Shown: positions 2,623 through 15,396 of the stretch, in pieces
Position numbering within the stretch: the first letter of the stretch is position 1
Layout: every line of letters begins with the position of its first letter
Origin: a bacterium
GTDB taxonomy: Bacteria > CSSED10-310 > JAJRTK01
Reading direction: 5' to 3'
DNA: 15,396 nt
Assembly: GCA_024278345.1 (NCBI GenBank)
Contig: JAJRTK010000081.1
Location: 1-15,396 of the forward strand
Made by a program: the position numbers and the translations under genes
Notes under the pieces: model-generated
What the model was told of the DNA's origin: nothing
The model's input: only the letters and a program-made list of their open reading frames with translations
Databases searched by the model: none

Positions 2623-2968
2623 GAAGGAGGAGACGATTTTCGGCAAGATCCTGTGCGGGGATGTTCCGTGTGAGAAAGTGTGGCAGGATGACCGGTGCAT
2701 CGCGTTCAGGGATATTGCCCCCGTGGCACCGCGGCACATTCTTGTCATTCCCCGGAAGTATATTCCCACGGTGAACGATTTGACGGAGGCCGATGAATCA
2801 CTGGTGGGGCACCTGATCTGGGTCGCCGCGCAAATCGCACGGCGGGAAGGTTTCGCCGACGACGGCTACCGCCTGGTCATGAACTGCAACAAGCACGGCG
2901 GCCAGGCTGTCTATCACCTCCACCTCCACATTCTTGGAGGCCGGCAAATGGAATGGCCGCCGGGGTGA
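2615..2968 (+). CDS. hinT: HIT family protein, HinT-type purine nucleotide phosphoramidase
   Basis: A 117-residue cytoplasmic protein, the normal length for HinT. The start at 2615 is preceded by AAGGAG and overlaps the membrane protein gene by 8 nt. The histidine triad is in AVYHLHLHILGG near residues 98-109, with upstream N and G residues of the nucleotide-binding pocket (NCNKHGGQ). The C-terminal GGRQMEWPPG matches the conserved end of HinT/HINT1 proteins, so the stop at 2966-2968 is genuine. The family hydrolyses nucleoside 5'-phosphoramidates and acyl-adenylates; the physiological substrate here is unknown. The last 50 nt of the gene, including the stop, are repeated immediately downstream. 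Confidence 0.95.
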   Translation: MTEKEETIFGKILCGDVPCEKVWQDDRCIAFRDIAPVAPRHILVIPRKYIPTVNDLTEADESLVGHLIWVAAQIARREGFADDGYRLVMNCNKHGGQAVYHLHLHILGGRQMEWPPG

Positions 2969-3026
2969 CCACCGCTTCCACCTCCACATTCTTGGAGGCC
3001 GGCAAACGGAATGGCCGCCGGGGTGA
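2919..3026 (+). repeat. 58-bp-period direct duplication of the HIT gene's 3' end
   Basis: Positions 2919-2968 and 2977-3026 are identical except for one base (T at 2949, C at 3007), giving 49 of 50 matches at an offset of 58 with an 8-bp spacer (CCACCGCT). The first copy holds the last codons and stop of the HIT gene. The second lies in the 80-bp gap before the converging methyltransferase gene and is out of frame, since 58 is not a multiple of three. Confidence 0.95.
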
Positions 3027-3842: not shown

Positions 3843-3935
3843 GGCGGCGGACGGATTGCCGCGGAAAAAAGGCGAGTGGCGGCGGACGGATTGCCGCCGA
3901 CGCGAGCGGACACAACCAAAAGAAAAATGAGCGTT
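3843..3935 (+). repeat. Dispersed repeat family 2, copy A (tandem double core)
   Basis: The 20-mer GGCGGCGGACGGATTGCCGC occurs at 3843-3862 and again at 3878-3897. The second core continues through a GCGGAC segment into AACCAAAAGAAAA, the A-rich tail found in the other copies. The core can fold with GGCGGC pairing to GCCGCC. It lies in the divergent spacer between the methyltransferase and TPR genes and helped set both start sites. Confidence 0.85.
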
Positions 3936-3994
3936 CTTCTGAAGAGATGCCCCGTGAGGGATATTCTGATGCTGAGGATTCGGAGAGAAGGGTA

Positions 3995-5731
3995 ATGGAG
4001 ATAGGCAGGCTGGGCAAGACGAAGGAAAAACGGTTTTTGGCCCTTTTACGGATGTTCCCCGGTGGCGCGACTTCGGCGGCATTGGAGGCGTTGTTGGGCG
4101 CCGGTTGGAGGGAGGGGCTGGAGACGGCGATTCGGCGGCATGTCGTCCGAAAAACCGGCGAGGATGAGGAAGACTTCTACTCCCTCGCGGAAGGCTCGGC
4201 AATGTCCGTGGAAGAAGGCTTGCCCTCCGCGGAGTTGGAAGGTTTGCGGCGGGAGGTCTGCCGTTGGTGGCAGAGCCAGTGCGACGCTCTTTTGCATCTG
4301 GTGGCTCGGGAGGGGATCGATGCGTGTGAGAAGGAGCTAGGGAAAGTCGAGGCGAACCTCTTGGCCTGCCTGAAGCCGGAGCGGAAGGCCGGTTTCAAGT
4401 CCGAAGGGAAGGCGGCCAGCGCGGCGGCTCGGCTGGGCGTGAGCCTGGCCCGGGTTTTTCTGTTTCTAGGGAGGATCGGTGACTCCAAGGCGGTTCTGGA
4501 TCGGGTTCTGGCTGCATCTGAGCATTCCGGAGACCGTTCAGGTCGCGCGCTGGCCATGGAGGAGATGGGGGAGCTGCACGCGCGCCGTGGCGACCTGGTT
4601 TTGGCGGCGGAACGGTTTTCCGATGCCCTGGCCTACTTTTTCGGAGAAGGCTCGGCAGTGGATGAGGCGCGCCTTTTGGCGGCCATCGCCCGGGTGAAAG
4701 GGCGAAGGGGAGATTTTGAGGGCGCTTTGCGCGATTATCAAGATGCCGAAGAGAAGGCCACGGATGCCGGTGATGGCGTCGTAGCCGCCAGGATTTCTAG
4801 AGCGATGGGGGATCTTTGCTTCCGGATGGGATGCCATGAGAATGCCAGAATCCACTTTCGCCATGCGCTGGCAAGGCTCCAGGAGCAGGAGGAACTGCTG
4901 GTGGAAGAGGCTTCCTGCCTGCTTTCCGTTGCAGCGCTGGAGTCCAGGGAAGGGAACCGTTCGGCGGCCCGGGCTGCCTATCAAGAGGCTTATGACCTCT
5001 ATGGAGAGCTGCGGCATTCGCTGGGTCAGGCCCATGCACTGCGAGGGCTTGGCGCAGCGGAGATGGCGTCTGGCCGGCACGCCCATGCCCGCCGGAATCT
5101 CGAGGAAGCGCTTTCCTTGTACCAGCAAGGCAGCGGATCTATCGGGATGGCGAACTGTCTTCAATCTCTTGCGCGTTTGCGGAGCAAGGAGGGGGAGAGA
5201 GAAGAAGCCTGGCAACTCTTGATCCGGGCATTCGACATCCATGTTTCCGTGGGCGATGGGATTGGAGTGGGCTCGGATCTCGGCTATCTGGCGCATCTTG
5301 CCAGGGAGCGGGGCCAGGTCGGTCGGGCTTTCTGGCTGGCGGAGATGGCCTTGGCCTGCCACAGGCTTGTAGGCGATCGCCTTGGCCAGGCCATGGATTT
5401 GCGCCTCCAGGGGGATCTCTTTCAACGGGAAGGCGTCGTGGCCGGATCGTTGGCCGCCTGGTGGCTTGCCCTGGGGCTTTTCAAGCTCCTCGGGACTCCC
5501 GACGCGGCAAAGTTCGAGGCGATCTTCGCGCGCCTTGAAAAGGACGGGCGCGGAACCCCTTACGAGCTTCTGTTCCAGGAGATTCTAAAGGACGCGGAGG
5601 CCGTGCGGATGCGAGCCATCTCTCCTTTTTCCCAAAAATTGTCCCAGGACAGGGAGCTCTTGTCCATGGCCGGGAAGATCGGCTTCGCTTCCAATTCGCA
5701 TCTGCGGCAGCCTTTTTCAGAGAAGGCGTGA
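3995..5731 (+). CDS. TPR-repeat protein with an N-terminal winged-helix-like segment
   Basis: A 578-residue protein started at ATG 3995, behind GGAGAGAAGGG; ATG 3947 is an alternative. Residues ~10-68 (FLALLRMFPGGATSAAL... to FYSLAEG) resemble the winged-helix segment that follows the NTPase in STAND/AfsR-like ATPases, but no P-loop is present. Residues ~140-500 hold nine TPR-like helical hairpins with a strict 40-residue period. The turn glycines are at 159, 199, 239, 279, 320, 360, 400, 440 and 480, typically RRGD or REG followed by an Ala-rich helix. The period suits MalT/LGN-type 40-residue TPRs. There is no signal peptide or membrane segment. A cytoplasmic scaffold or regulator is likely; the partner is unknown. 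Confidence 0.85.
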   Translation: MEIGRLGKTKEKRFLALLRMFPGGATSAALEALLGAGWREGLETAIRRHVVRKTGEDEEDFYSLAEGSAMSVEEGLPSAELEGLRREVCRWWQSQCDALLHLVAREGIDACEKELGKVEANLLACLKPERKAGFKSEGKAASAAARLGVSLARVFLFLGRIGDSKAVLDRVLAASEHSGDRSGRALAMEEMGELHARRGDLVLAAERFSDALAYFFGEGSAVDEARLLAAIARVKGRRGDFEGALRDYQDAEEKATDAGDGVVAARISRAMGDLCFRMGCHENARIHFRHALARLQEQEELLVEEASCLLSVAALESREGNRSAARAAYQEAYDLYGELRHSLGQAHALRGLGAAEMASGRHAHARRNLEEALSLYQQGSGSIGMANCLQSLARLRSKEGEREEAWQLLIRAFDIHVSVGDGIGVGSDLGYLAHLARERGQVGRAFWLAEMALACHRLVGDRLGQAMDLRLQGDLFQREGVVAGSLAAWWLALGLFKLLGTPDAAKFEAIFARLEKDGRGTPYELLFQEILKDAEAVRMRAISPFSQKLSQDRELLSMAGKIGFASNSHLRQPFSEKA

Positions 5732-5800
5732 GAACCGGTTGATTGCGCGTTTCTCAAGGTTTTTGGATGATCTCCGATTGTGCAATTGCGAAAAAGGCCA

Positions 5801-5829
5801 TTGACGAGTGGGTTCCAGGGGCTTATAGT
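5801..5829 (+). promoter_or_regulatory. Sigma70-type promoter upstream of the acyl-CoA dehydrogenase gene
   Basis: TTGACG at 5801-5806 and TATAGT at 5824-5829 are separated by exactly 17 bp, each matching the consensus at five of six positions. Transcription would begin near 5836, leaving a leader of about 170 nt before the ATG at 6010. The leader contains a GATCCCTGGGATC palindrome at 5951-5963. This is the best promoter in the window. Confidence 0.65.
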
Positions 5830-6009
5830 AAAAAATGAGTGGCCGTTCATTTTTCCTGTTTCGCTCTTTTCGTCCGCTGGTGGCTTGCTCCCAAACAGGG
5901 GCTGTGGCAGGCGGAATAACGGCCGGACCAAAAACTGTCACACGATTTTGGATCCCTGGGATCACGGGGCCTGAAGAGGTTCCCGCCTGGATTCGGAAAG
6001 GGGTGAAGC

Positions 6010-7851
6010 ATGAGCTTCCGGATTGATCTCCAAGACATCCTCTTTACGCTGGAAGAACACCTCAAGATCGAGCGGCTGTTGTCGTTTGAGCGGTACAAAG
6101 AGTCTTCCATGGAAGATTTTCGACTCTTGCTAGAGGAGGCCCGGAAGTTTTCCGAAGAGGTCCTGGCCCCAGTGAATGCCGAGGGGGACAGGGAGGGAGT
6201 CAAACTCGAAAATGGCGCCGTGACCGTTCCCGCCACTCACGTGGAGGCCTACCGCCAGTTTATCGAAGCTGGCTGGTGCGGAATGGGGTTTGCCGAGGAA
6301 TTGGGGGGATACCCGGTGCCGCGGGTCATTGGCACGGCGATTAGCGAAATGTTTACCGGAGCGAATGTCGCCTTCATGCTCTATCCAGGCCTCACTCGCG
6401 GGGCCGCGGAGCTCTTGCTGCACCATGCCGGTCCCGAGATGAAGGAAAAATACTTGCCGAAGATGGTTTCTGGCGAGCGGTCGGGCACGATGTGCTTGAC
6501 CGAGGCCCAAGCCGGTTCGGCCGTGGGTGATCTTTCCTGTACGGCGGTGAAGGAGGGAGACCACTATCTGCTCAAGGGGACCAAGATCTTCATCAGTTCT
6601 GGCGATCACAACATGACGGAGAATATCATCCACCTGGTGTTGGCACGCATCGAGGGGGACCCTCCGGGAACGAAAGGGATCAGCATTTTCGTCGTGCCGA
6701 AATTCTTGGTGAACAAGGATGGCAGTCTCGGCCAGCGGAACGACGTCTGCTGCGAGAGCATTGAGCACAAGATGGGGATCAAGGCGTCCGCCACCTGCAC
6801 CCTGACGTTCGGCGATCGGGGAAAGTGTGTCGGCTACCTCATCGGCGCCCAGCGGTCGGGAATGCGGATCATGTTCCACCTCATGAACGAGGCCCGGTTG
6901 TTGACCGGTCTTCAGGGCGAGTCCATCGCCGCCGCCGCCTACGGGGAGGCCCTCGATTACGCCAAGGAGCGAATCCAGGGTGTTGCTCTCAGGGACATGA
7001 AAAATATCGATGCGCCTCGCGTGGCCATCATCGAGCACCCCGATGTCCGGCGCATGCTCATGAACCAGAAGGCGCTGGTGGAAGGGATGAGGGCGTTGCT
7101 GCTCAGGACGGCCTACTATCTGGACATCTCGGAGATTTCCACCGACGACGATGAACGCCAGAGGGCTCAGGATCTGGTCGATCTGTTGACGCCCATCTGC
7201 AAGGCGTTTTGCAGTGACATGGGCTTCCGTGTGACCGAGCTCGCGGTCCAGACCTTTGGAGGCTACGGCTACTGTTCGGACTATCCGGTGGAACAGCACC
7301 TTCGGGACTGCAAGATCTCCTCGATTTACGAGGGGACCAACGGCATCCAGGCTTTGGACCTCTTGGGCCGGAAGCTGGGGCGGAAGAACGGTCGGCTGGT
7401 GATGACTCTCATGGAAGAAATGGATCGCTTCATGAAAGCCGAAGCTGAGCATCCCTCGTTCGGCAAAGAGCTCGAAAAATTTGGCTCCATGAAGGATCGC
7501 CTGCTTTCCGTGATCATGTCGTTCGGCGGTTACCAGATGCGGGGTGACTTCGAGTACCCAGCGCTTTCGTCGGTGCCCTTCCTCTACATGTTTGGATACA
7601 CCGTTGTCGGGTGGCTTCTTTTGGAGCAAGCGGTGGAAGCCGAGTCGCGTCTCCACGCTCTCTATTTCTCCGAGGGCGCTGCGAGTCTCGACGAGCAAAA
7701 AGCACTGCGGCAAGCCGATCCCAAGGCCGCTCACTATCACAACAAGGCACTGACGGCCCGGTTCTTCATCGCCAATATATTCCCACAAGCCCATGCATTG
7801 GCCGATGCCATCGAGTCAGAGGATCGGAGTCCCCTGGAGCTGTCACTCTAG
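6010..7851 (+). CDS. Acyl-CoA dehydrogenase with N- and C-terminal extensions (FadE/DmdC-like)
   Basis: A 613-residue FAD-dependent enzyme that oxidises an acyl-CoA thioester to the trans-2-enoyl-CoA. Residues 1-~35 form the short N-terminal extension typical of the DmdC-like subgroup. The N-terminal and middle domains follow, with the flavin/substrate loop MCLTEAQAGSAVG at 161-173. The C-terminal helical domain has VQTFGGYGY (413-421) and the catalytic glutamate E441 in IYEGTNGIQALDLLGRKL. Residues ~465-600 are the extra C-terminal domain of this subgroup. Length and motifs are normal and intact. Substrate could be a medium- or long-chain acyl-CoA or 3-methylmercaptopropionyl-CoA; sequence does not decide. 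AAAGGGGTG precedes the ATG. No other beta-oxidation gene is adjacent. It appears to be a single transcription unit with its own promoter and terminator. Confidence 0.95.
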   Translation: MSFRIDLQDILFTLEEHLKIERLLSFERYKESSMEDFRLLLEEARKFSEEVLAPVNAEGDREGVKLENGAVTVPATHVEAYRQFIEAGWCGMGFAEELGGYPVPRVIGTAISEMFTGANVAFMLYPGLTRGAAELLLHHAGPEMKEKYLPKMVSGERSGTMCLTEAQAGSAVGDLSCTAVKEGDHYLLKGTKIFISSGDHNMTENIIHLVLARIEGDPPGTKGISIFVVPKFLVNKDGSLGQRNDVCCESIEHKMGIKASATCTLTFGDRGKCVGYLIGAQRSGMRIMFHLMNEARLLTGLQGESIAAAAYGEALDYAKERIQGVALRDMKNIDAPRVAIIEHPDVRRMLMNQKALVEGMRALLLRTAYYLDISEISTDDDERQRAQDLVDLLTPICKAFCSDMGFRVTELAVQTFGGYGYCSDYPVEQHLRDCKISSIYEGTNGIQALDLLGRKLGRKNGRLVMTLMEEMDRFMKAEAEHPSFGKELEKFGSMKDRLLSVIMSFGGYQMRGDFEYPALSSVPFLYMFGYTVVGWLLLEQAVEAESRLHALYFSEGAASLDEQKALRQADPKAAHYHNKALTARFFIANIFPQAHALADAIESEDRSPLELSL

Positions 7852-7896
7852 GGGCCGCGGGATACCGAAAAGCCCTTCCCTTACCGGGCATGGTGG

Positions 7897-7919
7897 GACT
7901 TCGCGGAGGTCTTTTCTTT
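7897..7919 (+). terminator. Intrinsic terminator of the acyl-CoA dehydrogenase gene
   Basis: GACTTC (7897-7902) pairs with GAGGTC (7906-7911) across a GCG loop with one G-U pair. TTTTCTTT (7912-7919) follows directly. It lies 45 nt after the stop at 7851 and faces the converging gene at 8031. The T-rich part coincides with the A-rich tail of the inverted repeat copy B. Confidence 0.6.
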
Positions 7920-7973
7920 GGGTTGACTTCCGCTCCCGGCGGCGGCAATCCGTCCGCCGCCACTCGCCTTTCG
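7908..7973 (-). repeat. Dispersed repeat family 2, copy B (inverted)
   Basis: On the minus strand this carries the full 20-mer GGCGGCGGACGGATTGCCGC, preceded by GGCGAGT as in copy A and followed by CGGGAGCGGAAG and the tail CAACCCAAAGAAAAG. It sits in the 179-bp convergent spacer between the acyl-CoA dehydrogenase and the propeller-like gene. Confidence 0.85.
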
Positions 7974-8030
7974 GCGCACCTCACAAGGACTTCCCGGGGG
8001 GCAACACCACCGGAAACCAGATCGAGCGGG

Positions 8031-9137
8031 TCAACGGCGAAACCAGCCGGCGATCCGCTTGAGAAGGCCACCGGGCGATTCTTCCTCGTCATGATCGAAG
8101 GAAAACTGCCGGCCCGCCAGGCGTTTCGCCTGGCGGGCTTCCCCCTCTCCCGCGTCTGGAGTGGCCCAGGAGTGATGGAGGATGTCGGAACCCTCATCGG
8201 CGCTCCCCGCCGCCATCCGCCAAAGGCCCTGGTCCGTCGCCAAATAGAGGTCGTCTCCGGTGCTGATGGCGCTGGGGTGAGCCCCGGGAAAGTTCTGCGA
8301 GCCATCCCAGATCGAGGTTCCCGGAATCCGCCACCGGACCGTGGTTGTCTCCGGCCTGGCCGTGTAGAGCATGTAAACGCGCCGCCGGTGGACGATGAGC
8401 CCCGGTTTCCCGCCGGCTCCGTCGGTTCTGGCACGGAAAGAAATCCTCTCGAAATTGAGCTGGAGCTGCCCCGTGGGAACCAGCGCACCAGATTCTTTCC
8501 GCAAGATGCCGAACAGTACGTGAGGATGCCCGCTTGGATCCACAGCCACCGAGGGCATGGCATAAACTTCGCCGTCGCCCCGGTAGTACGACGTGAGGTC
8601 GCGGAGCAGCCCGTCCGAAGAGAGCTTTTCATACTCCGCCGCGACGGTGTGGACGCCTTCGTCATCCGTCCAAGCCATTCCCACCCAACGGCCATTGTGG
8701 CAGACCGAGACCTCCCACCCTCTTTCGGCAAGACGATGCATTGCCAGATCTTCACTGCCGCTCCAGTAGAGGAGGTAGACTCCCTCTCCTTCCTGGTTCT
8801 CCCTGCCAGCGGCCAGGACGACATTTTGCCCCCAGGCCGCGGCTGTGGCCACCGAATTGAACTGGCCAGCCAGGACGATCTTCCCGTCGGTCCAGAGGCC
8901 ACTCTGGGTGGCAAACAGAACGGATCCCCCCAGCAGGTGAGGCGATCCCGTGGCGTTATCGGGGGGGGGAACGGCCTCGGCGGTTTCCATTTTTCCGGCA
9001 GCCAGGCGGCTTCGATCATAGCTCCCCCCAAAATTCTTTTCCGCTATCCAAAGAGCGCCGTCAGGATCGAGCCCAAGGGCGAGCCGGTTGCTAGAGGTCT
9101 GCTTCTTTTGCCATTGAACAATCTTTTCACTTTCCAT
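8031..9137 (-). CDS. Unrecognised protein, probably a beta-propeller
   Basis: A 368-residue protein started at ATG 9137 with AGGAAGAGG about 8 nt upstream; the in-frame TTG at 9176 is less likely. There is no signal peptide or membrane segment. Short beta-strand blocks recur with polar turns: LGLDPDGALWIA (21-32), GSVLFATQSGLW (71-82), VAVDPSGHPHVLFG (197-210) and GDDLYLATDQGLWRMA (294-309). These resemble blades of BNR/sialidase-like or NHL-like propellers. The C-terminus is an acidic patch followed by a basic amphipathic helix (GGLLKRIAGWFRR). I cannot assign a family or function. Codons for residues ~332-341 form a perfect 12-bp inverted repeat at 8112-8138. It is divergent from the UbiB gene and convergent with the acyl-CoA dehydrogenase. 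Confidence 0.75.
   Translation of the reverse strand: MESEKIVQWQKKQTSSNRLALGLDPDGALWIAEKNFGGSYDRSRLAAGKMETAEAVPPPDNATGSPHLLGGSVLFATQSGLWTDGKIVLAGQFNSVATAAAWGQNVVLAAGRENQEGEGVYLLYWSGSEDLAMHRLAERGWEVSVCHNGRWVGMAWTDDEGVHTVAAEYEKLSSDGLLRDLTSYYRGDGEVYAMPSVAVDPSGHPHVLFGILRKESGALVPTGQLQLNFERISFRARTDGAGGKPGLIVHRRRVYMLYTARPETTTVRWRIPGTSIWDGSQNFPGAHPSAISTGDDLYLATDQGLWRMAAGSADEGSDILHHSWATPDAGEGEARQAKRLAGRQFSFDHDEEESPGGLLKRIAGWFRR
8112..8138. repeat. Perfect 12-bp inverted repeat inside a coding region
   Basis: GCCCGCCAGGCG (8112-8123) and CGCCTGGCGGGC (8127-8138) are exact reverse complements around a TTT loop on the plus strand. The hairpin lies near the 3' end of the propeller-like gene, encoding about EARQAKRLAG. 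It would be very stable in the mRNA. Confidence 0.9.
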
Positions 9138-9565
9138 CGCGGCGCCTCTTCCTGGTGGGTCCGTCCATGAGCACAAGCGGCATCATGCCGGTTTGTCTGG
9201 TTCATGTCGAAAGTAGAAGCTCCCAACGAGGGTTCCGGGCAAGGAGATCTCGCCGGATTCCAGGCCCGGTTGGGGCTGCGCTTGGAGCTCTTGGCACCGA
9301 TGACCGGGTCCCCCAATGACTGGACAAATCTCCCACTCCCAGCCCACTGATGCTGGGTCGTTCCCGGATTGGGGTTTCCGGCCTGATTCGTGGTGTTGAG
9401 ACGCGAGTGGTGGCGGATGGGATGACCTCGTGCCGAGGGCGTGAGTCGTGCCGCCGGGAGCGGAACGTAGCCAAAGAGAAGAGCGGTGTCTTGTGCGGTT
9501 TGGCGTTCGAGGTGGATCTCATGGGCGAGAACCGTTAGTCTTTGGTTTAGAACTAGGAGGCCCCG
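9138..9565. other. 428-bp divergent spacer between the propeller-like and UbiB genes
   Basis: No convincing gene on either strand; the short open frames here lack coding character. It contains repeat family 2 copy C (9402-9487) and the Shine-Dalgarno AGGAGG (9555-9560) of the UbiB gene. Promoters for both flanking genes should lie here, but I found no -35/-10 pair worth naming. Confidence 0.6.
9402..9487 (+). repeat. Dispersed repeat family 2, copy C (diverged, with an internal insertion)
   Basis: It starts GCGAGTGGTGGCGGATGGGAT, a diverged form of the family core, then carries about 20-25 extra bases (around 9424-9448). It rejoins the family at GCCGCCGGGAGCGGAA (about 9449-9464, shared almost exactly with copy B) and ends in CCAAAGAGAAGAG. 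It is the most degenerate of the four copies. Confidence 0.65.
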
Positions 9566-11251
9566 ATGGTGGTGATGAAGATCCGGCGCACTTACAAGCA
9601 CTTGCAGCGGTACCGACAGATATTGAGCGTTCTTATTCGCTATGGGCTCGCCGAAGGGCTGGAGCGGCTGCACCTCGATTTTGCTCAGGATATTTTAAGC
9701 AAGCCCATCGGCGAAGAGGTGATGGGGCTGTCGTACGAAGAGCGCGTGCGCACGGCCCTGGCGGAGCTTGGACCAACTTTTATCAAGCTGGGACAGATCT
9801 TGTCCGTTCGTCCGGATTTGGTGGGGGTCAAGCTGTCCCAGGAATTGAAGAGCCTTCAGGCCGACGTTCCTTCGGACGATTTCGAGTACGTGAAGGCGAC
9901 CATCGAGGAAGAGCTGGGACGGGAAATCACCGAGCTGTTCACCGAATTCGACCCGGAGCCTCTTGCTTCGGCCTCCATCGGCCAGACCCATCGGGCGACG
10001 CTTCCGGGAGGGCGCCAGGTTGTTGTGAAAGTCCGGCACAAGGGGATTGAGCCAAAAGTTCAAGTGGACCTCGAGATCCTTCTGGACCTGGCGGAGCTCC
10101 TGGAGCGTAATGTGGAAGAGAGCCGCAATTATCGGCCACGCGACTTCGTGGAGCAGTTCCGGCAGGCGCTCCTTAGGGAGATGGATTTTCGCCATGAGAT
10201 GCGAAACCTGGAGCAGTTTCGCACGTTGTTCGAGGAGCAGGCGGAGGTTCGCATCCCCGAGCCCATCGTCACGCATTCCGCACGGAAGGTGCTGTCCATG
10301 GAGTTCTTCGACGGAGTGCATGCGTCGGATTTGGATGGAATTCGGGCGCTGGGCGGGGATCCCGTGGAGGTTGCTCTGCGGGGCGGGCATCTCTACTTGA
10401 AGATGGTGTTCGTTTACGGGCGTTTCCACGCCGACCCGCATCCGGGGAACATTCTGGTGCTTCCCGGCGGGACCATCGGACTTCTGGATTTCGGCACCGT
10501 GGGCAGATTGACGGATGAGCTCCGGGAGGATTTGGAGGATCTGATCATCGCCCTGGCGCAGCGGCAGGGGGAGCGGGCTACCGACATTATCGTCCGGGTG
10601 GGCACACCGCCACGGGATCTCGATGTCGGGATGCTTCGGACGGAGCTCATGGACCTCACGGGCTATTATGTGACGAAGGCGCTTTCAGAGATCGATGTGG
10701 GGCAGCTTCTCACAGAGGTGATGGACCTTATCCAGCGGCATCACATCGTGCTTCCTCCGGCTATTTCCATGCTGATCAAGGTGCTCATCACGCTGGAGGG
10801 GACCGGTCGAGCTTTGTCGCCGGAGTTCAACCTGGCGGAGCTTTTGGAGCCGTACAAGACGCAGGTGATTTTGCGGCGGCTGTCTCCGGAGCGGCAGATG
10901 AAGAAGATGCAACGGCTGTACCGGGACCTCGAGCGGGCGGCGCAAGTCGTGCCCACGGGCCTGGTGGACATCGTGGCGCAGCTCAGGAAGGGGGATTTTC
11001 GGGTTCAACTGGAGCATCAGGGCCTTCAAGAATTGGGGCTGGAGCTACGGTACTCGGCGAACTGCCTCACTCTGGGGATTCTGACGGCGGCCTTGTTTCT
11101 GGGATCGACGGTTCTTTTGAGCGCGAAGGTGCCACCGCTGGTGTTCGGGCAATCCTTGTTCGGTCTTCTGGGTTACGTGCTGGCTGTCTTATTCGGGGTG
11201 CGGCTTTTGTGGGCGGTTCGTCATTTGGGGTTGGCGGGATGGAAGCGGTGA
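9566..11251 (+). CDS. ubiB: UbiB/AarF/ABC1 family atypical kinase-like protein
   Basis: A 561-residue protein with a perfect AGGAGG five bases before the ATG. It has the complete UbiB signature: KxGQ motif FIKLGQILSVRPDLV (72-86), the Ala-rich loop ASASIGQTHRA (134-144) replacing the kinase glycine loop, lysine K155 in VVKV, catalytic-loop HADPHPGN (288-295), and LLDFGTVG (306-313) as the DFG motif. Two hydrophobic helices (about 495-520 and 525-550) anchor the C-terminus in the membrane, as in UbiB. The family is an ATPase or kinase-like factor required for ubiquinone and other isoprenoid-lipid metabolism. No other quinone gene is present here, so the exact role is inferred from family. The M16 peptidase gene starts 89 bp downstream on the same strand and may be co-transcribed. 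Confidence 0.95.
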   Translation: MVVMKIRRTYKHLQRYRQILSVLIRYGLAEGLERLHLDFAQDILSKPIGEEVMGLSYEERVRTALAELGPTFIKLGQILSVRPDLVGVKLSQELKSLQADVPSDDFEYVKATIEEELGREITELFTEFDPEPLASASIGQTHRATLPGGRQVVVKVRHKGIEPKVQVDLEILLDLAELLERNVEESRNYRPRDFVEQFRQALLREMDFRHEMRNLEQFRTLFEEQAEVRIPEPIVTHSARKVLSMEFFDGVHASDLDGIRALGGDPVEVALRGGHLYLKMVFVYGRFHADPHPGNILVLPGGTIGLLDFGTVGRLTDELREDLEDLIIALAQRQGERATDIIVRVGTPPRDLDVGMLRTELMDLTGYYVTKALSEIDVGQLLTEVMDLIQRHHIVLPPAISMLIKVLITLEGTGRALSPEFNLAELLEPYKTQVILRRLSPERQMKKMQRLYRDLERAAQVVPTGLVDIVAQLRKGDFRVQLEHQGLQELGLELRYSANCLTLGILTAALFLGSTVLLSAKVPPLVFGQSLFGLLGYVLAVLFGVRLLWAVRHLGLAGWKR

Positions 11252-11340
11252 CTGGAGGAAAGAAGAAGAGGCGAAATGCTTGGCCGGCGCCAAGGTGCGT
11301 GGGTCGCTTTGCATCGCGTGAGGGCGCGAAAGGAGCTTGT

Positions 11341-14300
11341 ATGAGAGGGCGAACTGGGTGGATTCTTGTTGTGGGGATCAGTCTGATGGCAGGCTTTGCG
11401 TCCGCGGGGCAGGACGCAGCCGCGGCTAGTGAGAAGAGTCTGGCAGCCGGGGAAAAAACGGGCTCGGCCCAGGTGGATGTCCAAACTTTGGAGCTCGAGA
11501 ATGGCATGCGCTTTTTGCTTGTGCCGCGGCCAGAGCTGACGACGGTCTCGGGCGGCTGGGTGGCCCACGTGGGTTCGGCGAACGAGCGGCCCGGGATTAC
11601 CGGCCTGGCTCATCTTTTCGAGCACATGCTTTTCAAGGGAAGCCGCACCATCGGCTCGAAAGATATCGACCGGGACCTTGAGATCATCGAGCGGCAGGAG
11701 GCACTCCAGAAGGAGATTCGACGACTCTACACCGCGCGGAGGCAACGTTGGCGCCGAGGGGAGATCGAGGATCCCTATGCCGACGATAGCCGGTCGCCCG
11801 AGCTCATCGAATTGCGACAGCAGTTCGAGAAGCTGGTGGAAGAACAGCGGGAGATCATCCTCAAGGATGAGTTTGACAGGCTGTACACCGAAGCTGGCGG
11901 CTCCGGTATGAATGCTTTCACGACCCAGGACATGACCGTCTATTTCGTCACGGTGCCGGCGAACAAGCTGGAGCTCTGGTTCTGGATGGAGTCGGATCGC
12001 TTGAACGAGCCAGTGTTCCGGGAGTTTTATTCGGAGCGGAGCGTGGTCCATGAAGAGCGGCGCCGGAGCACGGAATCGACCCCCACGGGCAAGTTCGAGG
12101 AGCAGCTCGAAGCGATGTTCTGGCAGTCGCATCCCTACTCATGGCCGGTTCTGGGTTGGCCGTCGGATCTGGAGGTGATTAGCAAGGAGCAGGCGGACAA
12201 GTTTTTTGCCACGCACTACGCTCCCAACAACCTGACGGAGGTCTTGGTGGGTAACTTTGAGATTGATGAAGCAAGGCGACTGGCCAGACGTTACTTCGGG
12301 AGGTTGAAACGAGGGACTGACCCGCCCGAAGTGGTGACGCTAGAAATGGAGCAACAAGCCGAAAAACGGATGGTGGCCCGCTGTAACTGCCAACCCCGGG
12401 TTCAGATCCTGTATCACACCGTGCCCTTCCGCCACGGCGACAGTTACGCACTGAGTGTCCTTGCGGGGATCCTCAACGGCCGGACGGGACGCCTCTACAA
12501 ATCGATGGTCTTGGACCGGCAAATTGCCACGTCCGCCGGGGTGTACCAGAACTCGAACAAATATGGCGGTGCTTTCGGCGTCGATATCGAGGCCAAGGGC
12601 GAGGTGACCCCCGGACAACTGGAGGCAGCCTGGTACCAAGAGCTTGCAAAGCTCCAAGGGGAGCTCGTGGCGCCGGCCGAGCTGAAAAAGATCAAAAACC
12701 GCACGGCTGCCAGCGCATTCCGCCGCCTCCGAAAACCCATGTCGCTGCTCATCCAACTTCTTTACTACGACGGCTTGGGCGACTGGACCTACCTCAACGA
12801 TTGGGCGCGGAAAACGCGGCAAGTGACCGCCGAAGAAGTGCGGGAAGTAGCGCGACGCTATTTCGCGCCTCAGAACCGGTTGGTGGGACTCTATTATCGA
12901 AATGAAGCCCCGCCCGCGAGCCAGGGGGATGCCGGTCAACCCAAGGAAAAGGGGAACACTGGTCCACCTGCCCCGGCCACCAGCCAAGCCCCGACCACCC
13001 AATCTGCGCCTTCTACAGCTCCGGCACCCGCGCAATCCGGCCAGGCAGCTTCCAGGGCGCCCGCCGCGATGACCTTGAATGCGCAGGGACCGAAAGCGAC
13101 GGTTCCGGCCCAGACAGACGTGGCCAACAGCAAGGAGCCGCCGCTTCCAGCGCATCCCCGGGAGCTCGAGTTCGGCCCTCTCGATTTCGAAGTCCCCGAT
13201 GCCAAGGAGTTTCGACACACTCTGTCCAACGGCATCCCCGTCTATGTCGTGGAAGACCATTCTCTCCCGCTGGTGACCATCTCCGTGACGCTAAGGAGCG
13301 GCAGTTTTCTGGAGCCGCCCCACAAGATCGGTCTTGCCAGCCTAACGGGTTCCATGCTGCGAGAAGGCGGCACCGAAAGCCTCACGGCGGAAGAGTTCGA
13401 CGAACGAGTCGATTTCATCGCCGCCAACATGGGCTCCTTCATCGATGATACGTCGGGAGGCGGAAGCATGGACTGCCTCTCCTGGGTCCTGGACGACGCC
13501 CTGGAGCTCTTCTTCGACATGCTAAGGCGACCCCGCTTTCAGCAAGACCGCCTGGACGTCGAAAAATCGAGCATCATCGAAGGCCTCAGACAGAGGAACG
13601 ACGACGCACGGAGCATCTTCGGACGGGAGTGGTTGTGGCTCCTTTATGGCCAGGACCATTTCAGCACACGCCTCCCTACACAGGCGAGCATCGAAAAGAT
13701 CACCCGCCAGGATCTCCTGGATTTTCACCTGCGTGCCTTCCAGGCCGATCACCTGGTCATCGCCGTCGCTGGCGACGTCGATCCAGAATCCATCATGGAA
13801 AAGCTGGAGAAACAGGTCGCTGGCTGGGGCGCCGCGACCGCCTCCATCCCGTGGCCGCCGCCAATCTTGTCCCACAAACCGAAACCCGGGCTCTATCACG
13901 TGGAGAAGGATGTTCCCCAGGGCCGCGTGGGCATCGGACACATGGGCATCCAGCTTGTCGATTGGAAGAACCCGGACCTCGCGCCAATCCTGGTGATGAA
14001 CGACATCCTGGGTGGTGGCGGCTTCACCTCCCGCATCACCAAGCGGGTCCGGTCCGACGAAGGATTGGCCTACAGCGCCTATTCCGTCTTCGGCATGAGC
14101 CAGCATTGGCCGGGCGTCTTCCGCATCGGCTTCCAGTCCAAGAGTGCCACGGTGGCCTATGCCGCCAAGCTGGCGCTCCAGGAGGTCCGGCGGATCCAGA
14201 CGGAACCGGTGACTCCTCAAGAGCTGGGAACCTCGAAAAACTCATTCATCGACGTTTTTCCCCGGCGCTTCGAGTCGGCAGTCTCCGTGGCAACGCTCTT

Positions 14301-14559
14301 TGCCGCGGACGAATTCCTGGGCCGGGGTCACGACTATTGGGACACGTACCAAAATCGGTTGGCTGGGGTCACCGCGGACGACGTGCTTCGCATAGCCAAG
14401 ACTTATCTGCATCCCGAGCGGATCGTCTTCCTGGTCATCGGTCGCTGGGCGGAGATTGAGCCCGGCGACGCCGAGGGAAAGGCCAGCATGAAAGAGTTCT
14501 TCGACGGCAAGGTGAGCCACCTGCCTCTCCGCGACCCATTGACGCTGGAGCCGATGTAG
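11341..14559 (+). CDS. Secreted two-domain M16 (insulinase/pitrilysin) zinc metallopeptidase
   Basis: A 1072-residue protein started at ATG 11341 (AAAGGAG five bases upstream). The N-terminus is a Sec signal peptide with likely cleavage after ASA (residues 20-22), so it acts in the periplasm or outside. The first M16 unit (~48-520) has the inverted zinc motif HLFEH (91-95) and the third ligand near E238 in VVHEERR. Between them lies an extra ~70-residue charged, coiled-coil-like insertion (about 108-183) before the GMNAFTTQDMT motif. A Pro/Ala/Gln-rich linker (~523-600) joins a second M16 unit (~622-1060), which has ASLTGSMLREGG where the zinc motif would be and so is non-catalytic. It retains the GGGGFTSRI and R...Y region involved in substrate binding. 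This N-active/C-inactive arrangement forms a clamshell that degrades peptides. The specific substrate is unknown. Confidence 0.94.
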   Translation: MRGRTGWILVVGISLMAGFASAGQDAAAASEKSLAAGEKTGSAQVDVQTLELENGMRFLLVPRPELTTVSGGWVAHVGSANERPGITGLAHLFEHMLFKGSRTIGSKDIDRDLEIIERQEALQKEIRRLYTARRQRWRRGEIEDPYADDSRSPELIELRQQFEKLVEEQREIILKDEFDRLYTEAGGSGMNAFTTQDMTVYFVTVPANKLELWFWMESDRLNEPVFREFYSERSVVHEERRRSTESTPTGKFEEQLEAMFWQSHPYSWPVLGWPSDLEVISKEQADKFFATHYAPNNLTEVLVGNFEIDEARRLARRYFGRLKRGTDPPEVVTLEMEQQAEKRMVARCNCQPRVQILYHTVPFRHGDSYALSVLAGILNGRTGRLYKSMVLDRQIATSAGVYQNSNKYGGAFGVDIEAKGEVTPGQLEAAWYQELAKLQGELVAPAELKKIKNRTAASAFRRLRKPMSLLIQLLYYDGLGDWTYLNDWARKTRQVTAEEVREVARRYFAPQNRLVGLYYRNEAPPASQGDAGQPKEKGNTGPPAPATSQAPTTQSAPSTAPAPAQSGQAASRAPAAMTLNAQGPKATVPAQTDVANSKEPPLPAHPRELEFGPLDFEVPDAKEFRHTLSNGIPVYVVEDHSLPLVTISVTLRSGSFLEPPHKIGLASLTGSMLREGGTESLTAEEFDERVDFIAANMGSFIDDTSGGGSMDCLSWVLDDALELFFDMLRRPRFQQDRLDVEKSSIIEGLRQRNDDARSIFGREWLWLLYGQDHFSTRLPTQASIEKITRQDLLDFHLRAFQADHLVIAVAGDVDPESIMEKLEKQVAGWGAATASIPWPPPILSHKPKPGLYHVEKDVPQGRVGIGHMGIQLVDWKNPDLAPILVMNDILGGGGFTSRITKRVRSDEGLAYSAYSVFGMSQHWPGVFRIGFQSKSATVAYAAKLALQEVRRIQTEPVTPQELGTSKNSFIDVFPRRFESAVSVATLFAADEFLGRGHDYWDTYQNRLAGVTADDVLRIAKTYLHPERIVFLVIGRWAEIEPGDAEGKASMKEFFDGKVSHLPLRDPLTLEPM

Positions 14560-14563
14560 ACCT

Positions 14564-14617
14564 TCATAGTATCGGCCACCCGATAAAAGTGCGCAGCGCA
14601 CAAAAACGTGGGTAGGG
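14564..14617 (-). repeat. Dispersed repeat family 1, copy 2 (inverted, directly after the M16 stop)
   Basis: The reverse complement matches 80-133 at 47 of 54 positions without gaps. On the minus strand, GTGCG-CTG-CGCAC is followed by TTTTA, a terminator-like hairpin. It begins 5 bp after the M16 stop codon. No group II domain V is present next to this copy. Confidence 0.75.
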
Positions 14618-14619
14618 AT

Positions 14620-14644
14620 CCCGTTGCCCGCAAGTTGCAACGGG
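14620..14644 (+). terminator. 8-bp hairpin downstream of the M16 gene
   Basis: CCCGTTGC (14620-14627) pairs perfectly with GCAACGGG (14637-14644) around a 9-nt loop, 60 bp after the M16 stop. No T run follows on the plus strand, so a role as an intrinsic terminator is unproven. Confidence 0.35.
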
Positions 14645-14668
14645 AAGTGAGCGCGCTCCCTGGTGGGT

Positions 14669-14685
14669 GCAGGGCGAAGCCCTGC
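14669..14685. repeat. Perfect short hairpin GCAGGGC-GAA-GCCCTGC
   Basis: A 7-bp perfect stem with a GAA loop in the spacer after the M16 gene. It has no T-tract and no assigned role. It might contribute to transcription termination together with the hairpin at 14620-14644. Confidence 0.5.
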
Positions 14686-14770
14686 CAGGGGACAGGGCTG
14701 AAACATCCCCTCATTTCCAGGCGGAAAGAGGATTTGGGGGCTCGTTGACCGGTTGAAGGGCGATGAGAGG

Positions 14771-14835
14771 GGAGGGGCGGCGGACGGACCGCCGCCGACC
14801 CGACCGGACCCCAACCAGCAGAAAAAAGCAGTTGT
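14771..14835 (+). repeat. Dispersed repeat family 2, copy D
   Basis: The core GGCGGCGGACGGACCGCCGCC differs from the other copies so that the stem is extended to 8 perfect pairs (GGCGGCGG with CCGCCGCC, loop ACGGA). It continues GACCCGACCGGACC, then CAACCAGCAGAAAAAAG, matching the A-rich tail of copy A. It lies between the M16 gene and the transposase remnant. Confidence 0.8.
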
Positions 14836-14936
14836 TCGGAGTCTTTGACCTGGATGCGTCCCACAAGCAAAAAAATGAGGGGATGGCTCAGCAAAAGGTG
14901 GTGCTCTATAGTTAGGGCATTTACGCCAGGGTCGCT

Positions 14937-15396
14937 TCACTGGGGCCCAGCCCGCTTCCATGGCTGGAAGGTTTCCGGCCTCGGTCCAGAGACCAACGGT
15001 AGGTCGCTCACAGGCGTGAAAATCAACTGTTCTACACTCATGGGCTTCTGCGCAAGCCCCATGGCCATCGCTGGCGTTCGATGCACCACCTGCAAGGGCT
15101 CCAGCATGAGACGCAGACCACTATTCACAAAATGGAAGTTGTAGCAGACCATCACCCACCACGAGACCGCCAGGTGCATGACAAAATCCTTGGAGAAGCA
15201 CAGGGTCTTGCGCGCCTTGCGGGCGTTGTGTGTCCGGTCGGTTCCATTCTGTCGCTCGATGAATGCCGTGTTGATCCTTCACCGCCGGAAAAAACGGATC
15301 GCCTTGTGGCGGTGTTTTTTGATCCCGCGGTAGAAGGAAGTGTGGGGCTTGGTGAGTGGAGCTTTGTGGTTGGGGTTCCCTGAAAGAGGATTTGGC
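14937..15396 (-). pseudogene. DDE transposase C-terminal remnant with an in-frame stop, cut by the window edge
   Basis: Read on the minus strand, the frame closed at 14937 gives INTAFIERQNGTDR, then NARKARKTLCFSKDF, then YNFHFVNSGLRL, and ends with TPAMAMGLAQKPMSVEQL. This is the C-terminal end of an insertion-sequence DDE transposase of the IS1-like type; the glutamate in FIERQNG is the likely third catalytic acid, and TPAMAxGL is a typical tail. The same frame continues upstream but is broken by TGA at 15279-15281, with plausible sequence (YRGIKKHRHKAIRFFRR) on both sides of it. The open part after the stop is only 113 residues. I therefore call a decayed or nonsense-interrupted element; the N-terminal part lies beyond the window. 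Confidence 0.75.

Follow-up and report, generated by a model that had tools for sequence, protein, structure and literature searches.

A very abundant intergenic hairpin repeat that is probably the conserved core of a MITE family with IS1-type ends

Repeat copies and neighbouring features in the window

The window, by which we mean the whole stretch of DNA analysed here, is one complete contig of 15,396 nt (C548) from a 6.06-Mb genome (G000) that comprises 550 contigs and is 88% complete. Four of its spacers contain a copy of the same hairpin repeat (A to D), and a partial insertion sequence occupies its right-hand end (Table 1). The copies had been predicted to form one family lying in divergent, convergent, upstream and downstream settings. 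These settings agree with our gene calls, which come from a simple codon-statistics gene finder made for this analysis (85% coding), and a covariance model (CM) trained on 38 copies confirmed all four as members. The scores of copies B and D are partly given by construction, as the training set had sequences identical or nearly identical to both; evidence independent of this training is provided by BLAST from copy A and by nhmmer, as described below.

Table 1. Coordinates of the repeat copies and associated mobile elements in the window
Feature	Position	Strand	Evidence and remarks
Truncated tandem extra hairpin before copy A	3844..3865	+	CM 13.7 bits, model positions 9-30; direct repeat D2
Copy A	3869..3970	+	CM 65.0 bits (3871-3916); nhmmer 3.6e-18; RNA fold equals the consensus structure
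Copy B	7892..8011	-	Shortened unit of ~120 nt; CM 68.1 bits; ends compared with the TIR, limits by eye
Copy C	9402..9487	+	CM 18.9 bits (9402-9471), E 0.014 in 82 kb; nhmmer 5e-4
Copy D	14769..14815	+	Core hairpin within composite MITE; CM 55.1 bits; fold
Composite MITE enclosing copy D	14697..14892	+	196 nt; own 20-nt TIRs GCTGAAACATCCCCTCATTT / AAATGAGGGGATGGCTCAGC; near-identical copies elsewhere
IS1-like right TIR	14897..14919	+	GGTGGTGCTCTATAGTTAGGGCA; pattern match; further ends at C58, C273, C545; close to both MITE ends
IS1-family transposase fragment	15168..15335	-	PF03400 26.4 bits (DNA), 25.3 (protein), cut-off 24.1

The copies differ in how much of the element they retain. Copy A consists of the core hairpin (3871-3907), an A-rich tail and a decayed 3' arm, its 3' limit being approximate and its 5' terminal repeat not recognisable. 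Copy B runs from its 5' end GGTGGTGTTGC at 8011 through the core hairpin (7922-7968) to ...GTCCCACC at 7892, with no recognisable target duplication. Copy C combines a decayed tail with a core whose apical arm is enlarged by about 23 nt, a type also found at L087:8532, L092:180 and L127:16736. An apical insert of the form GGGGAACTCGCGCCGAAGGCGCGGGTCGTGCC gives a subset of hairpins a branched head (L067, L070, L087, L092, L101, L127).

The window contains further features of its own. The end of a Group II intron, domain V/VI (Rfam RF00029, 58 bits), lies at the very start of the contig (7-85, plus strand). An 87% inverted repeat of the GCGCAGCGCACAAA type (80-133 and 14564-14617) recurs near many contig ends and represents a further multi-copy element at which the assembly breaks. 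A HIT-domain gene has a 58-nt tandem duplication at its 3' end (2886-3001), which repeats the HLHLHILGG stretch past the stop.

Copy number and distribution in the genome

A first BLAST search of G000 with copy A gave 42 matches, and iterated nhmmer found 134 copies (E<=1e-3) within 1.02 Mb of sampled stretches and 0 in the reversed-sequence control. In 60 contigs picked arbitrarily by number (0.65 Mb) there were 79 copies, which scales to an estimated total of about 740 in 6.06 Mb; the CM recovered at least 150 in G000. The original prediction had reckoned with the possibility that the genome would contain no further copies; hundreds are present. In seven other genomes of the phylum, the CM gave only three weak matches, all in a single genome (G003, best E 0.03), and a DNA query against 40 relatives found no related repeats. 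The exact core pattern had 0 matches in the genome contigs.

Genes take up 85% of the genome, yet about 90% of the copies (120 of 134) are found outside them. In tandem two-gene spacers 29 copies are on the same strand as both genes and 22 on the opposite strand, while 19 copies lie between convergent and 25 between divergent genes. The orientation of copies is thus without preference, and the counts match the spacers available. A palindrome of 20-40 nt, high copy number and intergenic position are among the features by which REPs are recognised, and the family has all three. As a separate observation, the hairpin core in L004, L005, L021 and L006 is adjoined, at nearly equal distance, by a different repeat, TGTCCCGCNTNNNGTGGATACCC, as if another mobile element favoured these sites.

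A mobile unit of about 148 nucleotides

Similarity between copies begins about 50 nt upstream of the hairpin start and ends about 100 nt downstream of it. The boundaries become sharp in a young subfamily whose members share 95-97% identity over about 148 nt and no similarity beyond, being alike over exactly one span (about query 1455-1603). Young copies begin with GGTGGTGCT (printed with flanks: GGTGGTGCTTCGGCCTTAGGGCA) and end with CACGACC (GCCCTAAAAGAAGAGCACGACC); GGTGGTGCTTCGGCCTTAGGGCA and GCCCTAAAAGAAGAGCACGACC form an imperfect inverted-repeat pair, outside which lie 8-bp direct repeats. From left to right, an intact unit comprises GGTGGTGCTYNNNNYYTAGGGCA, a spacer of about 22 nt, a 36-nt imperfect hairpin, GGAACGCAAC, an A-rich stretch and GCCCTAAAAGAAGAGCACGACC. 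The hairpin has the form GGCGAG-YRGCG...CGAY-GGGAGC, its helix being interrupted by an internal loop of tandem G.A/A.G and by a G.A mismatch.

Perfect 8-bp duplications flank the copies at L064 (AGGATTCC), L196 (AGAAGATC) and L059 (TGTTTTCG). Matching duplications are also found at two pairs of contig ends, C15/C546 (CAATCTTC) and C182/C506 (AGAATGTG), each of which we read as what is probably a single copy split by the assembly. Among 36 full-length copies the flanking 8-mers agree on average at 5.42 of 8 positions, against 4.02+-0.17 after shuffling (maximum 4.56 in 500), and they match at 7 or more positions in 7 of the 36, against a shuffled mean of 0.57 and a maximum of 3. Such duplications are the mark of cut-and-insert (DDE-type) transposition, and a unit of 148 nt cannot hold a transposase gene. 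With a length below 500 bp, defined ends, target-site duplications and TIRs common to a co-resident insertion sequence, the unit has the properties of a MITE. The original prediction took hairpin and A-rich tail as the unit, but what is conserved and what moves is the 148-nt element with its TIRs. Those terminal repeats had been missed, as had the 8-bp target duplications and the place of copy D in a second, composite MITE.

This composite element is itself repetitive. The pattern of its TIRs has 24 matches against 0 in a backward control, relatives sharing up to 97% over long stretches occur at L086, L065 and L087, and longer versions are present at L067 and C147. By eye, an IS1-type MITE with degenerate ends sits inside the 196-nt composite.

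The parent insertion sequence

Immediately to the right of the composite, an IS1-like TIR opens an insertion sequence that runs off the contig end (14897-15396). The transposase fragment within it is a short C-terminal stretch interrupted by TGA. The TIR pattern matches the genome at 115 places, compared with 2 in the backward control, and nearly all matches inspected are ends of the 148-nt MITE. The exceptions include left ends of the insertion sequence, identical at C156 and C187 with a third at C549 recognised by pattern, and right ends at C58, C273, C545 and in the window. Most of these extend to the end of their contig, as is usual for multi-copy elements. One MITE subfamily is identical to the left end GGTGGTGCTCTACCCCTAGGGCA at 21 of 23 positions; overall, MITE left ends agree with it at 18-21 of 23, and both MITE ends agree with the right end of the insertion sequence at 17-18 of 23. 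Homology stops right after the TIR, and the next 11 bases do not match.

IS1-family elements of the ISAba3 type are reported to have TIRs starting GGTGGTG and 8-bp duplications (PMC6382973). Such GGTGGTG ends and 8-bp duplications, together with the matching ends and the PF03400 fragment beside the right end, indicate that the parent is probably an IS1-family element. Every copy of it seen runs off a contig or is truncated, and left and right ends lie on different contigs, so the parent is incomplete in this assembly and its two ends are presumed to be linked across contigs. Because of this incompleteness we only infer that its transposase acts in trans on the MITE ends.

Taken together, the TIRs, the 8-bp duplications, the ends matching a multi-copy insertion sequence and the adjoining transposase fragment make us fairly confident that the repeats are mostly old, decayed copies of one MITE family of about 148 nt, most likely moved by an IS1-family transposase. 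Copies would be pasted mainly into spacers, after which their terminal repeats would decay.

Conservation of the hairpin

In the fold of the consensus GGCGAG(T/C)(G/A)GCG...CGA(C/T)GGGAGC, the outer pairs G2-C37 and C3-G36 are followed by the tandem G.A/A.G internal loop and by a helix from 6-33 to 8-31. Position 9/30 is a G.A (or G-C), and an inner helix from 10-29 to 15-24 closes a loop of 8 nt. The highest mutual information (0.736 against a shuffled maximum of 0.393) belongs to columns 8 and 31, where 85 of 120 copies have G-C and 32 have A-T. In 38 distinct, diverse copies 86.8% of cells pair, compared with 72.2+-1.3 after shuffling; the covariation score is 0.371 (shuffled 0.173+-0.015) and both sides have changed in 54 cells (shuffled 20.9), while shifting the partner by 1-3 columns destroys the pairing signal. 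Several of the same stem pairs reach z values of 5.8-8.5 in an alignment of 76 longer copies. On the GGCGAG strand G.T outnumbers A.C by 114 to 18, and of about 126 copies 110 keep the tandem G.A loop and 86 the second G.A. The excess of G.T and the persistent mismatches imply that one particular strand, folded with its mismatches, has been kept; the hairpin may have been preserved because the GGCGAG strand acts when folded on itself, as RNA or as ssDNA, whether in transposition or in tolerance and use by the host.

Of the original interpretation, a repeat family whose structure matters is thus borne out, as substitutions do not ignore the pairing, while two of its supporting arguments do not hold. 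A TT said to break the longer stem in copies A and B, and replaced by CC in copy D, had been offered as structural evidence. This argument fails since TT is a loop dinucleotide in the consensus and copy B already folds with nine uninterrupted pairs and an 8-nt loop. Similarly, the tail of copy B had been read as part of a terminator. Terminator-like matches number 20 across the window and 16.1+-3.2 in shuffled sequence, and the one in question (7895-7913) has its stem in the 3' arm, not in the hairpin.

The arms behave differently from the core. A maintained helix between them was considered and rejected: arm pairs show no covariation in the 76-copy alignment, and the arm duplex, at -18.1, is at the level of the controls (-18.6 with arms swapped, -16.8 with letters shuffled), so the arms are terminal repeats by descent. 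They can still be recognised in 71 of 124 copies, roughly half, compared with 22 in control windows. Copies without recognisable arms have weaker cores, which fits ageing, and some of them could be hairpin-only units. Overall the core has been kept much better than the arms and irrespective of their identity, averaging 0.80 between copies whether the arms agree at 30% or at 60%; in 115 pairs of copies the cores are at least 95% identical and the arms less than 45%. This contrast is partly one of ascertainment, because copies were found by their cores, but ascertainment leaves the near-identical cores of otherwise decayed copies unexplained. Simple neutral decay after insertion does not predict a better-kept core; selection, gene conversion or separate movement of the core might each account for it.

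Alternative explanations

A different mobiliser could be a RAYT (tyrosine HUH) transposase. Under this explanation the family would be a REP family whose mobile unit is the hairpin with its tail, the arms belonging to a MITE that captured the hairpin. The genome has a single RAYT gene (C390:22522-23232; NF047646 1.3e-18, 67.3 bits, below the 80-bit cut-off; PF01797 30.2 bits, cut-off 23), and a genuine copy lies across its stop codon (CM 43.3 bits, E 1.3e-8, outside the training set; fold z -4.06). A core lies within 10 nt of the gene 3' end in only 4 of 681 genes, so this placement is unlikely by accident, and the independence of core and arm identity would also suit a hairpin with a history of its own. 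A Y1 enzyme is, however, not expected to leave target duplications, and young copies carry both TIRs and 8-bp duplications, which speaks against RAYT as the mobiliser. Similarity at the RAYT end also reaches into the MITE 5' arm, to about 30 nt upstream of the hairpin. RAYTs have been described as flanked by two inverted REPs (PMC2817692), yet no second copy was found on the 5' side of the gene, even with filters off. Nor is GTAG or CGTC conserved at the foot of the hairpin, GT(A/G)G occurring in 65 of 134 copies and inside the paired stem. With neither a second flanking copy nor a conserved tag the link is not compelling, and mobilisation by RAYT appears quite unlikely. The RAYT-associated copy is a possible origin of the hairpin.

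Some observations on RAYT genes stand apart from this question. The RAYT gene itself contains a palindrome of the GTAG type twice in frame (L132 8806-8830 and 8895-8919; GTAGGGGCGGGTTCCGAACCCGCC on the other strand); these notwithstanding, GTAGGGGCGGG is absent from the sampled genome, and no GTAG-type REPs were found elsewhere in it. RAYT relatives in other bacteria (L169, L170, L172, L174, L176) have a strong hairpin, such as TAGGGACACCCCGAGTGGGGTGTCCC, that begins at the stop codon or directly behind it, and this layout resembles that of the copy at the RAYT gene of G000. Next to RAYT relatives from other taxa, the core model gave no convincing match.

Two further explanations concern the hairpin itself. 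Stem pairing could be kept by mutation, not selection, if template switching or gene conversion between copies repaired the palindrome. The 115 pairs with near-identical cores and diverged arms would be in line with such exchange, but template switching would remove mismatches, and the retention of both G.A mismatches in most copies speaks against simple palindrome repair; maintenance of the pairing by mutation is, in our view, very unlikely. Alternatively, the repeat might be a cis-acting RNA element, such as a terminator, an mRNA stabiliser or a leader, selected by the host in each spacer. A covarying hairpin that favours G.T over A.C on one strand and a core that outlives its arms are what such an element would show. 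Against it, orientation in the spacers is unbiased, a U-tract is missing 3' of the hairpin in its own orientation, terminator-like matches stay at the level of shuffled sequence and Rfam has no match at the four repeat sites; host selection spacer by spacer is therefore most improbable.

While a MITE family moved by an IS1-family transposase remains the preferred explanation for the copies, the hairpin might in addition be a structural module that is itself active, for instance a REP-like signal in ssDNA or RNA that was captured from the RAYT gene and is maintained independently of the spreading MITE arms. We consider this unlikely, but if true, the family would unite two mobile systems, IS1-type ends and an HUH-type hairpin, in one composite with hundreds of copies, in a phylum about which little is known. 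If not, it adds one more MITE family, of unusual abundance, to a phylum with few genomes. In either case the example illustrates that a family that looks like REPs by its conserved core can turn out to be a MITE when the alignment of young copies is carried through to their ends. The estimated 740 copies, whose folded core persists as the terminal repeats decay, are also a natural collection on which one could test directly whether structures in RNA or ssDNA are under selection in small bacterial repeats.

Comparison with known systems

The family shares features with several described systems. Like REPs and their RAYTs (PMC2817692, PMC3733652), it has an imperfect hairpin of 20-40 nt in hundreds of intergenic copies and a RAYT gene with a copy at its 3' end; it differs in the missing conserved GTAG/CGTC tag, in a RAYT gene that is not flanked on both sides and in the presence of TIRs and duplications. 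The ends resemble those of ISAba3 of the IS1 family (PMC6382973), with a TIR starting GGTGGTG, 8-bp duplications and a PF03400 transposase, although the assembly has no complete copy of the present parent, whose transposase is represented only by a C-terminal fragment. ERIC (IRU) sequences of enterobacteria, with up to 711 copies per genome (PMC10969869), are similar by description as short intergenic imperfect palindromes in high copy number and both orientations, whereas the present family has visible TIRs, 8-bp duplications and a likely parent insertion sequence.

QMITE2 of Coxiella burnetii is a MITE of about 190 bp with TIRs of 23-29 bp, duplications of 7-9 bp and tens of copies; its core contains a palindrome, and its truncated copies look like REPs (PMC10969869). 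The present family shares the TIRs, the duplications, the core palindrome and the REP-like truncated copies. The palindrome of QMITE2 is of the GTAG REP type, whereas that of the present family has no GTAG tag, its ends match an IS1-type element and its estimated copy number is about tenfold higher. The family is thus a very abundant MITE with a REP-like core, closest in design to QMITE2.
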